From the NCBI RefSeq assembly GCF_000209165.1, contig NC_009042.1, positions 1,302,001-1,366,000 on the forward strand: a stretch of 64,000 nt of DNA. Reading direction: 5' to 3'. The position numbers and the translations under genes are program-made. Below, piece after piece: positions 41,023 to 56,778 of this stretch (positions are counted from its first letter, which is position 1; every line of letters begins with the position of its first letter). Origin of the DNA: Scheffersomyces stipitis CBS 6054 (lineage: Eukaryota; Ascomycota; Pichiomycetes; Serinales; Debaryomycetaceae). The notes beneath the pieces are model-generated. The model saw only the letters and a list, made by a program, of their open reading frames with translations. It had not been told where the DNA came from and did no database searches.

Positions 41023-41433
41023 CAACAATAATAGACTCATTTGTGGGGCATTCCTGTGCCTTCCGGGTCGCTTACGCCAGTGCACCCGGACGGAGCCGGC
41101 AGCTATGCCCAACTTTTTATGGGTGCAAAATTTGCTTAAAAAAGAGGAGTTAAAGAAGCCGTTGAAGAACGGAATAGAGGGGATGGCAATAAAGTAGAAG
41201 GAATCTAGAAGGTAAATGAACGGAGGTTGAGCTCGAATTAGGGATTGGTGGCCTGCTTGGAAAGGAGAATTATGGAACTCGATTATATTGAAAAGGATAT
41301 ACTACTACTTTGTAATAGCGATCTAATCTTCTCCTATTCCCCCCCTTTTCCAATCAAAGCCCGCAGCTTCCTAGCTTTGACATCACATAATCTTTCTATT
41401 CAAGTTCTTAAATTGTATTTCACAGCCATCACT

Positions 41434-53272: not shown

Positions 53273-53822
53273 TGCACACGTAAATAAAGCGACAATTTGC
53301 TACACGGAGATGAAACGTGTCTGACAGAATTCTATAGACGCGTTAGCGTGTGTTTGACTTGTATTGGTTGTCTTTAATTCAAAGTACGTAGTGATATAAA
53401 TCGTATATATTCTGAAAATGTCTATTACTATATTTTTTGTATGGATAATTTGCCGCACCAAAAGTCGTTGCGACCAAAAATATATGCAGCTCATATGACT
53501 TCCCAAAAAAGTAGCAATTGCAACAAGGATAAGTTACAACTTTGTTAATACAAATGTCATTTAGTGGCAGCATACTTGTCAGATTAGGAGTTGAAACTCA
53601 TTTGAATGTCTCTCCTGAAATTGGTATGAATTAAAGACAACTTCTTGTGCTTTTTGACCCACACTTGAGCTTCTCATACTTGAGCTGACTCTTATTCTCT
53701 TTTCTTAATTGCAACTATTTCCTTCTTTTCTCAGACTTTCAGTTTTGATCCTCGAACAGTACAATTACATCATAGAGACTCTCTGTTACCTTTCAATATC
53801 TCTTAAGTGAAAACAAAAAATA

Positions 53823-53894
53823 AGCTCGCACTCAGGATTGAACTAAGGACCAACAGATTTGCAATCTGCTGCGCTACCACTGCGCCATACGAGC
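53823..53894 (-). tRNA. tRNA-Cys(GCA)
   Basis: On the minus strand the 72-nt molecule starts GCTCGTA, has box A TGGCGCAGTGGTAGCGC, an anticodon stem GCAGA/TCTGT around the loop TTGCAAA (anticodon GCA), and the T-arm/B box AGTTCAATCCT. It ends TGCGAGC plus discriminator T. All four stems pair. No intron. A T6 terminator follows (A6 on plus at 53815-53820). Confidence 0.97.
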
Positions 53895-53942
53895 TTATTT
53901 TGATTAGCTTTGCAAGAACATCAAAATATATGCAGCAAGACG

Positions 53943-53950: not shown

Positions 53951-54052
53951 CTTGAGTCACGCAATATCCAACGAACTGTGAAGTTTTCAGTTGTTCTATG
54001 TTTTCATCTTCATGAGTAAGATGATACTATATTACATCACGATCTTTGATAG

Positions 54053-54336
54053 TTCCTAAGGGAAGTCGAATCACGAAACATATTTTACAATTCAATTGCT
54101 TGGTTCTTCCAGGAACATAAAAAGAATGGTAAAATACCGACGATCGACGATATTATCCAGCGTATCAAAGACACCTGCTCTTACGTGCCACAAAACTCCC
54201 TGGACAAAAAATCGAAGACTTGATAAATGAAAGGATAGATATTTCCCGTGATAAAGAGAAAGCCAGACCCAATGGCAAAAGCGGTAATATGGGAAAATCT
54301 CATTTCACAGGAAAATCAAACGATGGTGATAGATAA
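54053..54336 (+). pseudogene. Decayed coding relic, possibly retrotransposon gag
   Basis: A 56-codon open segment (54053-54220) encodes IAWFFQEHKKNGKIPTIDD and DTCSYVPQN. It runs by an apparent frameshift near 54195-54215 into a second frame, LPGQKIEDLINERIDISRD followed by a basic Gly/Lys/Asn/Ser-rich tail ending at 54336. No ATG start and no longer frame exist. The composition (helical part, then basic low-complexity tail) and the place just upstream of a tRNA gene would suit a Ty1/copia gag remnant, but no zinc knuckle or LTR is recognised. It could equally be the remnant of a host gene. Confidence 0.3.
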
Positions 54337-54843
54337 GGATTCAAGAGTAAAGCCTTTCGGTGCTAAACGCCATGGGCAATAAGGCTTAGTTCTATGAAGC
54401 AGGTTACGTAGTCAATGATGTGTATCAACTATAGATGAAAAGTAAATATAAAATAGATTGCATAAGAAAGACCTGTTCTCCGAACAAGCAAATGATATCC
54501 CAAGAATCCCACCCTCCCGGTCGGCAATATTGGCAGGTGAAAAGTTGTCAGTTATAAATTGTGCTCAAGTGATTATATGAAGAGATGATATAACATGAGG
54601 GGTGCTCCTCTCCTGGAGTAATGTATCTTGAACTGTTTATTAAGGGTAAACGAAGACCAACGATTTGTATTTGTGCCCAACAAATCGATGCAAGTAAAAT
54701 AGGGCTTGCCATCGCTTAATTATTTTAGACCGGTACCAATGCATTTGCAATGTTCACAGACGATGCAGTTTTTGCAATATGAAAGAACTGAATTAGTTTT
54801 GTTGATATAGAAAAGACCTTTTCCTCCAGTAGTCTCCTGTTCA

Positions 54844-55410
54844 TCACGAAGATTCGTTCTCTATTATCCCTTCTGTCTTTTCTCCTTCCTTTGGTGGTCT
54901 CAACCATCGGTAGAACGACACCAATCTTCCCGGCACTTCCTCATAAATGACATTCGACCAGTTCTCGTGTTGTATCTTATCATCTAATATTCTCAAAGAT
55001 TTGGATAACATGTCCACCTTCTTCTGTACCTCCTTCACGTTAACTGTGCGAACCATCTTGATTTCAGATCTCGAATACATATGTGTCCGTTGAGAACAAT
55101 TCGTAACTACCAATCTATGCATCTCTACTTCTCGCTTGAGTTTGTCCCTTTCTGCTAATGCTTCTGTTAAGGTTTTGACATTTTCGTCTTCACTAAATGC
55201 AAATTTAATGTGAGTATTTGTGATGTTGATCTTGGATATCAAGTCAGTCAATTCAGTGTTTAGCTCAACATACTCTCTGGTTAATTCCTCGACGCTTTCA
55301 GGTGGCATATCACCTTCTTGAACTACGCAGTTGTTGGATATTCTTTCCTTCAATTGCTGAAGTCTGGATAAGTAATCCTTTCTTAATCTCAAAGCTTCTG
55401 CTAATTGCAT
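54844..55410 (-). CDS. DIP1984-family protein (bacterial-type), candidate horizontal acquisition
   Basis: The ATG at 55410 gives a 188-aa, intronless protein, MQLAEALRLRKDYLSRLQQL. It is coiled-coil through most of its length. Its pattern is that of the bacterial DIP1984 family (DUF6847): LAEAL with a helical VQEGDMPPESVEEL block, TLTEALAERDKLKREVEMHR at about residue 85, MYSRSEIKMVRTVNVKEVQK at about 115, and LDDKIQHENW at about 150. The family's function is unknown. An added about 30-residue C-terminal tail (WLRPPKEGEKTEGIIENESS) is not part of the usual family. I know of no core yeast gene of this kind, so transfer from bacteria is the simplest reading. A GCN4-like site lies upstream. Confidence 0.82.
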   Translation of the reverse strand: MQLAEALRLRKDYLSRLQQLKERISNNCVVQEGDMPPESVEELTREYVELNTELTDLISKINITNTHIKFAFSEDENVKTLTEALAERDKLKREVEMHRLVVTNCSQRTHMYSRSEIKMVRTVNVKEVQKKVDMLSKSLRILDDKIQHENWSNVIYEEVPGRLVSFYRWLRPPKEGEKTEGIIENESS

Positions 55411-55590
55411 GACTAGGATATAAAAGAGGAATAGATGGTATAAAACAAACACCGGACCGTATTCAGAGTGTCAAAATGAAAGCAATTTATAGTTTTTGCA
55501 ACACCTTATTCTAAGGCTTGGTTGACTATCTAATCGAATGACTAATAGCTAGAAGAGTATAGCAAATAGATTATGATAAGGTATCACTCT

Positions 55591-55636
55591 TTTTGCACCC
55601 AAAGAAAGAGTCATTTTGCACCCAAAGAGTGAGTCA
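55591..55636. repeat. 23-bp tandem repeat with bZIP-like sites
   Basis: Two 23-bp units, each TTTTGCACCCAAAG plus a 9-bp end, differ at two positions. A third partial copy (TTTTGCA) follows. Unit ends read AGAGTCA and TGAGTCA. Confidence 0.85.
55630..55636. promoter_or_regulatory. GCN4-type site TGAGTCA
   Basis: TGAGTCA is the canonical Gcn4/AP-1 core. It lies 220 bp upstream of the DIP1984-type gene; the first repeat unit carries a one-base variant at 55607-55613. Confidence 0.4.
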
Positions 55637-56778
55637 TTTTGCAGAATGCATACCTTTGGTATTGGGATAAACGGTAAAACCCAAGTTAAGGTTGCAAGAA
55701 GATGAAGTAAGAATCAACCTACAGCAATTAGTCATTTCAGCTGCAGTCATATGAGTCTGGAGAAAATGTTTGAATCATTAAATGCGTCTCAGAGGCACCA
55801 ACCAATAGAGAACCGAAGCAAAGTACATACGTCTCAATTAAAAAACCTTGAACTTTATATATTTCAGCTAGAATCTCAGATGGTTCCTAGAAACTTTGCC
55901 CTTGTATGGAAGCGATTGCAAAATTATTGTGCAACAGAATTATAAAGTTGCATGAAAGAATATTCAGTTACGGTTATCATATTTTTCTGCCCCTCCACTA
56001 CTATTTGGTAGCCGCCCTTAGCCGTCGTTTTTTTTTCACCCAAAAACACCACACAGGTCAGGAATGTGGTACACGCCTTTGAAACCCCATCAGTTTACCC
56101 AAATAGTCAAAAAACATATAACCGCGCAACCGAGAAATACGCAACAGGCGGGCTAATGCTGCTTCAATATGTCACGGGTGGTGGCAGGTTCGGGGCTGCT
56201 TTGTTTTTGCTTTTGAGTGGGGCTACAGGGGCTGTCTATTTCATCCTTGTAGTCTACAACTTCCTACTTTTGCATTGGCTATTTTTGCATTGGGTGATCT
56301 CGTCGTTTCGACAGTTCAAGTAGCAGAAAGCTAGCTCTGAATCGTATGTCTTTTTCCAGTTGATGCGTTCTGGCTAGCATACAAAATAATACCTGCTCAT
56401 GTTGCTGCAACCTTAAATTCGATGAGGAAAAAATTTATGTGGTGGGCAAAAAAATACAAAATTTACTACAGGCGGAGTTTGAAATTGAGATTTTTTCCAT
56501 TTTGCGTAGTTTGTAACTTACATAAATTCGTCAATTGCTACAGAAGTATATACAATAATAAGGAAAACCGCCCGAGACACCAGACAGTTACGGTGCCTGT
56601 TTAGTGTCAAAAACTTTCGTTACCAATAAAGCCCCGATTCTAAGCTCAAATAAATAATAACCGTAGTAAATGGATGTAGTTGAAATGAAGTCGTAGCCAC
56701 GACGATGCTGAGATGCTAATAAATAATACATTGATGATGGACATGACCACATCTTTGTCAGAGACTGTAGTCACAAGC

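Follow-up and report, generated by a model that had tools for sequence, protein, structure and literature searches.

Members of the DIP1984 family of proteins (DUF6847) occur on bacterial genomes, on Acinetobacter plasmids and in several yeasts; the family lacks an assigned function, and some sources treat it as a putative toxin. In the literature searched, DIP1984 appears in one paper (PMC10889530), where a plasmid gene of that name encodes a hypothetical protein, and no mention of DUF6847 was found. In fungi, the family appears to be already known under the name septicolysin. The Candida albicans gene orf19.716 (CR_06500C) is described as "Similar to the septicolysin family of bacterial cytolysins", and one study (PMC6851284) describes it as not conserved in S. 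cerevisiae and reports that its deletion strain begins agar invasion at 4 days as against 2 days and shows fewer hyphae in tongue tissue, with a fungal burden like that of wild type in the table. Two other papers report that Bcr1 mutants of C. albicans and C. parapsilosis differ in how orf19.716 is regulated (PMC3228736) and that the gene is induced in biofilm (PMC6591175). In Malassezia, a septicolysin-like gene is said to come from bacteria and to be present in five copies in M. globosa (PMC7426719), and such a gene is also treated in PMC12239588. Among the matches listed in our searches, Acinetobacter plasmid DIP1984 genes were labelled septicolysin or septicolysin-like in 1 of 40 (H36) and 2 of 60 (H73, H104) cases, and the UniRef entry P0132 bears the septicolysin name. 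Because the labelled plasmid genes match the yeast-like proteins P0001 or P0002, and because of the name of P0132, the septicolysin names were taken to denote DIP1984 proteins. By its description and this equivalence of names, orf19.716 is very probably the orthologue of the yeast DIP1984 gene reported here. Scheffersomyces stipitis carries a real DIP1984 gene that is probably of bacterial origin, old in the Serinales and known in that order under a misleading name.

The window (the whole stretch of 64,000 nucleotides that was analysed) belongs to a 2.74-Mb contig, and the DIP1984/DUF6847 coding sequence lies at 54844..55410 on the minus strand, as supported by the open reading frame and by Pfam, NCBIfam, PDB and genome matches. 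It runs from 55410 to 54844 and encodes 188 amino acids followed by TGA, which bears out the intact, intronless 188-aa reading frame of the original prediction, where the strand was not stated. The ATG is at the same place as the start of the bacterial members (M-K/Q-LAEAL). A single copy was found in its own genome (8 contigs, 15.44 Mb searched). Its GC content is 39.2%, and its codon score (0.086) falls within the range of 14 neighbour genes (0.008 to 0.239); with this yeast-like codon use and a single copy, contamination or a very recent transfer is unlikely. The gene is chromosomal and lies among yeast genes; one neighbour is the RNA polymerase III subunit RPC2, matched to a PDB sequence over residues 5–1155 of 1155, and another is the ribonucleotide reductase large subunit, matched over residues 36–821 of 891. 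The best PDB chains for these two are S. cerevisiae chains, and further neighbour genes carry the putative names TFB2, MTG2, DBP8 and others. In the reductase gene, codon 749 is CTG and was aligned with Ser in the PDB chain, and from this one site the host probably decodes CTG as Ser.

The decayed relic beside the gene was confirmed as a piece of a Ty/copia-type retrotransposon gag gene, which is unrelated to the DIP1984 gene and lies outside it, downstream of the coding sequence, at 54009..54389 on the plus strand; it was recognised by genome matches, with 5 further genomic places at 74–76%, and the element type was judged by eye. A tRNA-Cys (gca) gene at 53822..53895 on the minus strand lies near this relic, outside the gene. 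The predicted upstream repeat is likewise present as two tandem units of 23 bp (core TTTTGCACCCAAAGA) at 55588..55633, given on the plus strand, between the DIP1984 gene and a plus-strand ORF at 55751. A 31-bp pattern made from both units was found nowhere else in the genome with up to 3 mismatches, and the repeat is a local 23-bp duplication; the 15-base core has loose matches also at 41116 and 56032. The TGCACCC within it presumably resembles the Aft1/2 iron-response site of S. cerevisiae. TGASTCA is the Gcn4-type site, and across the window 10 such sites were seen against 14 expected, which is not above chance. Two short plus-strand ORFs are present upstream of the gene, at 55751–55945 (64 aa) and 56066–56323 (85 aa).

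The assignment to the DIP1984 family, made in the original prediction from hallmark blocks, was upheld by database matches. The protein matched NCBIfam NF038048 (E 6e-49, 166 bits against a cut-off of 70; profile 1–146 of 149 over residues 2–152), Pfam PF20935, which is DUF6847 (E 1.6e-46, 158.2 bits against a cut-off of 27; profile 1–139 of 141, residues 10–153), and PDB 3kdq at 2.6e-22. The blocks claimed are all present and in the claimed order, namely LAEAL (3–7), LTEALAERD (81–89), YSRSEIK (112–118), TVNV (122–125) and LDDKIQHENW (142–151), and in the alignments the family blocks LAEAL, QEGDxP, INxTN, TLxxAL, SRSE and LDxxIQxxNW were all found. The family domain, delimited by Pfam, NCBIfam, the alignment and the predicted model, comprises residues 1–151 (MQLAEAL ... 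LDDKIQHENW) and is encoded at 54958..55410 on the minus strand; its predicted model has four long helices (3–28, 40–67, 81–106 and 125–152). Furthermore, R10, N65, R140, Q147 and N150 are identical in 67 of 67 yeast and bacterial rows, and Q31, N62 and R88 are conserved in 62 to 65 of them. No hydrophobic stretch is present, the best 19-residue hydropathy window being 0.45. The invariant polar residues together with the missing hydrophobic stretch fit a soluble binding protein. A fold search for a remote function gave nothing beyond 3kdq that stands out of the helical background. PADLOC defence models gave 0 families at E 0.01 for P0001 and P0025, and in PHROGs P0001 had no match and P0025 one weak match of unknown function.

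These features bear on the suggestion of the Malassezia and Acinetobacter papers that septicolysin is a pore-forming cytolysin of bacterial derivation, which harms host or competitor membranes. The name is indeed borne by the Acinetobacter plasmid genes, the UniRef entry and the C. albicans and Malassezia genes in papers, and the C. albicans mutant, in the study cited above, invades agar later and shows fewer hyphae. As general background, the thiol-activated cytolysin domain (Pfam PF01289) is about 500 aa long. The Pfam scan of the yeast protein gave no cytolysin domain and its entire length is 188 aa; it has no hydrophobic stretch, as judged by hydropathy; the solved member of the family is helical with no close fold neighbour; some bacterial members stand among RNA-repair genes; and weaker invasion after deletion is non-specific. 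The pore-forming-toxin reading rests on little except a name, and we consider it highly improbable.

The protein continues beyond the family domain into a C-terminal tail (residues 152–188, 54847..54957 on the minus strand), delimited by alignments, a model with low confidence in this region and a genome search. The tail holds 37 residues past the W of NW, and the bacterial rows that could be read to their stop codon end 4 to 7 residues past this W. Among the 12 other yeast-like rows, 10 end 5 to 13 residues past W, and P0127 and P0128 have a different, acidic tail of 28 and 32 residues. The eukaryotic-looking addition of about 30 residues noticed originally is real, but it is lineage-specific and not a general eukaryotic feature: none of the 12 other yeast-like rows has it, and of all the rows compared only this yeast's protein carries it. 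The 431-bp stretch containing the tail DNA has no second place in the genome, from which an extension into the former 3′ flank is the most likely origin of the tail. A retroelement origin of the tail was also considered and is unsupported, the tail-holding stretch having no second genomic place.

The relatives of the protein were sought in protein collections that are mainly prokaryotic and contain few eukaryotes. The search from the single sequence gave 1 relative, a profile with bacterial rows gave 3866 (the best 120 of 3866 were listed) and a profile from two yeast rows gave 215 (the best 120 of 215 were listed), among them P0121–P0130. P0124 is from Debaryomyces tyrocola and P0129 from Diutina catenulata, both of the Serinales. 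None was found when named genome contigs were scanned with P0001 alone, or viral contigs with P0002. A careful, unrooted tree was built from 108 rows, of which 13 were yeast-like (P0001, P0002, P0121–P0129, P0160 and P0223) and 95 bacterial; 339 candidates had been reduced to 96 representatives at 66% identity, and 95 of these were used. P0160 and P0223 were taken in by eye for a common C-terminal motif, and L005 (very long branch), P0130 (98-aa fragment) and non-yeast P rows longer than 175 aa were dropped beforehand. All 13 yeast-like rows formed one clade among the 95 bacterial rows, with support of 100/96 and in 200 of 200 bootstrap trees. The sister of this clade was a group of nine bacterial rows at 92/89, a value that is not decisive; the nine are Bacteroidota-like by similarity to P0182, P0193 and P0215, plus L094 from a Bacillota-sample genome. 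The AU test also accepts a union of the yeast clade with 18 Bacillota rows (p 0.64), path length in a quick tree pointed to Bacillota, and the top-scoring BLAST matches beyond the yeasts were from Sporosarcina at about 50% identity. Since the quick and the careful trees differ and the AU test accepts both, no donor is named.

The original prediction had proposed a horizontal transfer, to be supported by nesting inside one bacterial clade with few yeast members. The support for the sister group of nine bacterial rows does not decide on such nesting, with the Bacillota union also accepted, and the expectation of few yeast members fails, as 12 further yeast-like rows join the clade. The gene is present in D. 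tyrocola, D. catenulata, more yeast-like rows and, by the literature, C. albicans and C. parapsilosis, which suggests that the order Serinales has long had it and has passed it on vertically. A bacterial origin is nevertheless what we hold with considerable confidence: the family was found in at least seven bacterial phyla in the sample and the yeast clade attaches among bacterial rows, though not as an isolated recent transfer. We infer the direction and the number of transfers. The alternative, vertical descent without horizontal transfer from an early eukaryotic or fungal ancestor, followed by many losses, would agree with the breadth of the gene within Serinales and its yeast-like codon use. 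It would need many losses, the family is widespread and diverse in bacteria, and the papers cited above describe the gene as not conserved in S. cerevisiae (PMC6851284) and the Malassezia gene as a bacterial transfer (PMC7426719), so we regard this descent as unlikely on the basis of these papers and of collections with few eukaryotes. The transfer from bacteria is placed in the ancestry of a yeast order and not of one species.

In bacteria the family is widespread but sparse. Genomes over the family cut-off numbered 13 of 199, 13 of 201, 3 of 200 and 5 of 98 in four phyla (1.5 to 6.5%), each sample counting its centre genome, which had been picked for having a DIP1984 gene. Among the named control genomes it was found in 0 of 14, although 9 of them have RtcB. 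Matches were obtained in 368 of 72,556 plasmid records, of which 340 were Acinetobacter, and 5 of 50,697 phage records also gave one. In the viral collection, a 178-kb contig carries a DIP1984 gene (L140, 4001–4474) whose start lies inside a longer ORF of another frame, and no RNA-repair neighbour was recognised there by eye. Two genomes of the Bacillota sample, G017 and G103, each carry two DIP1984 copies about 2 kb apart (L090/L102 and L091/L101), and a coiled-coil-like ORF, as judged by eye, lies beside one copy of the pair.

The neighbourhoods of bacterial DIP1984 genes were examined in 125 loci (L002–L126; 5 plasmid, 80 genome-contig and 40 genome-sample loci, the last with about 1.5 kb of flank each) with 883 neighbour ORFs. 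The 40 sample loci take in 4 weak matches that fall below the family cut-off (L100, L116, L120, L121), 4 repeats of centre loci (L087, L104, L117, L125) and 2 loci that are second copies in one genome (L101, L102). The search for RNA-repair genes used phmmer and eight single seeds drawn from the same loci, by which divergent genes may be missed, and L071 was added separately; Pfam was run on 30 of the 883 ORFs, chosen by the author. RNA-repair neighbours were found in 16 of the 125 loci, and 17 of 17 such genes share the strand of DIP1984; the choice of families followed the inspection of the neighbours, and related loci are not independent. The RtcB family was found within about 4 kb at six loci (L013, L031, L047, L048, L071, L075), the RNA ligase of PF09414 (RNA_ligase) at four (L011, L023, L024, L071), a Pnkp-like protein of 861 aa with PNKP ligase and phosphatase domains at six, all in Paenibacillus, and Tpt1/KptA at one (L026). 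At L071 the gene order is RNA ligase, DIP1984, RtcB. By NCBIfam cut-offs, the L026 Tpt1 is over its own, the L011 ligase is barely over that of DRB0094 (151.9 against 151.15), and the L071 ligase (DRB0094), the L031 RtcB (RtcB) and the Paenibacillus protein (Pnkp, 191 against 750 bits) are under theirs; these last three pass Pfam. The RtcB gene near DIP1984 at L075 (6121–8070) has an intein domain.

For 49 loci chosen out of the 80, the background expectation was calculated from genome size and genome-wide copy number (77 genomes were searched overall), with RtcB, RNA_ligase and PNKP_ligase as the three families; fragments were joined into gene copies by hand, and the author did the counting of lineages. 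RtcB was seen near DIP1984 6 times against 0.076 expected, RNA_ligase 4 times against 0.033 and PNKP_ligase once against 0.007. At least one of the three was present in 10 of the 49 loci against 0.116 expected, which is not a prevalence, because the loci were chosen and every repair-positive locus but five Paenibacillus near-copies was retained. The RtcB excess, when counted as three lineages, gave P 7e-5. None of the four RNA-repair families was found nearby in 109 of the 125 loci, all 40 sample loci among them, and the nearest such genes noticed in the sample-locus genomes were at 6.2 kb (RtcB, G001) and 8.7 kb (RNA ligase, G486). No neighbour was common to all 125 loci. The most frequent recurrent neighbour, as judged by eye, was an ABC-ATPase-like cluster (13 loci, 7 genera), which belongs to a very common family. 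Nothing was recognised by eye among the neighbour ORFs of L094/L137, the Bacteroidota-like relatives nearest the yeast clade (L135–L137 were read for ORFs alone), and no RNA-repair gene was recognised among the ORFs read by eye beside the yeast gene.

Two other neighbour families were noticed. A vWA-like protein of about 420–490 aa recurs mostly in cyanobacteria (L011 2020–3489, L017, L023, L026, L080, L124, L125); its Pfam vWA match is under the cut-off (L011, L017), NCBIfam gave none, and we take it to resemble Ro/TROVE proteins, of which it may be a divergent member. A family of 123–144 aa with the motif YRPVGLKEL recurs in cyanobacterial loci (L011 3528–3959, L017, L026, L079), and its L011 member has no Pfam or NCBIfam match.

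As background, the yeast machinery for healing and sealing of RNA includes Trl1 and Tpt1. We propose that an ancestor of the Serinales (CTG-Ser) took a DIP1984/DUF6847 gene from a bacterium and that vertical inheritance followed, in which the gene took on yeast composition and stayed intact. The product would be soluble and all-helical, with about 150 conserved residues and, in this yeast, a 37-residue extension, and would act as an accessory factor of RNA end repair that may bind broken or processed RNA ends, or the healing and sealing enzymes, and help ligation. The helical platform would present R10, N65, R140, Q147 and N150 to RNA ends or to the ligase; the partners would be RtcB, the DRB0094-type ligase, Pnkp and Tpt1 in bacteria and the host's own RNA healing and sealing machinery in yeast. 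We infer both the RNA binding and the role in yeast. The explanation as a whole, with an old bacterial transfer into Serinales and an accessory role in RNA repair, seems to us somewhat probable, and the RNA-repair role of DIP1984 taken by itself is plausible but falls short of probable. More tentative still is the suggestion that DIP1984/DUF6847 is an unrecognised accessory of bacterial RNA-repair modules which Serinales captured and use in RNA end repair. If true, the yeast might use it, for example, when tRNA or HAC1 is ligated or to withstand killer toxins that are anticodon nucleases, and the septicolysin virulence label in papers on C. albicans, Malassezia and Acinetobacter plasmids would be wrong.

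We regard as plausible, though less than probable, that the protein came from bacteria but has a function in yeast unrelated to RNA, for instance as a scaffold of coiled coils recruited to filamentous growth or to biofilm. The slower agar invasion upon orf19.716 deletion (PMC6851284), its different Bcr1 regulation in two Candida species (PMC3228736) and its induction in biofilm (PMC6591175) agree with such a scaffold, and the long helices of the predicted model would fit it. Against it, the five residues R10, N65, R140, Q147 and N150 do not vary among the 67 rows from yeasts and bacteria, a point in favour of a shared biochemistry. The slower hyphal invasion of the C. albicans mutant is compatible with the RNA-repair role as well and not specific to it. 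As a case of transfer the gene is ordinary; its greater interest lies in pointing to what the whole family may do. The bacterial neighbourhoods give a concrete and testable alternative to the toxin, namely RNA repair, which can be tried on the yeast gene with its single copy. Literature pairing septicolysin with two or more of RtcB, RNA repair and TROVE was not found, and the link between DIP1984 and RNA repair is new within the literature searched for DIP1984, DUF6847 and septicolysin with RNA repair.

In comparison with known systems, bacterial DIP1984 genes have same-strand RtcB, DRB0094 ligase, Pnkp or Tpt1/KptA neighbours in several lineages, whereas most loci have none, and unlike these proteins DIP1984 itself matches no enzyme family. 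The C. albicans orf19.716 belongs to the same yeast order and bears a name also borne by the DIP1984 family, the likeness being drawn from the description and the shared name. The Malassezia septicolysin-like genes share the name and are likewise reported as a bacterial transfer into a yeast, but Malassezia is a basidiomycete with multiple copies and presumably an independent transfer event. A further close system is 3kdq, the Corynebacterium diphtheriae DIP1984 protein, which shares with the yeast protein the same motifs, a near-complete profile match and, by the predicted model, the same fold (38% identity, rmsd 1.6 over 151 residues). Unlike 3kdq, the yeast protein has a 5-residue insert ahead of the LTEALAERD block, and with its C-terminal tail it differs from the usual DIP1984 proteins, which are about 150 aa long and end just past NW, an end that lies outside the NF038048 and PF20935 profile definitions.
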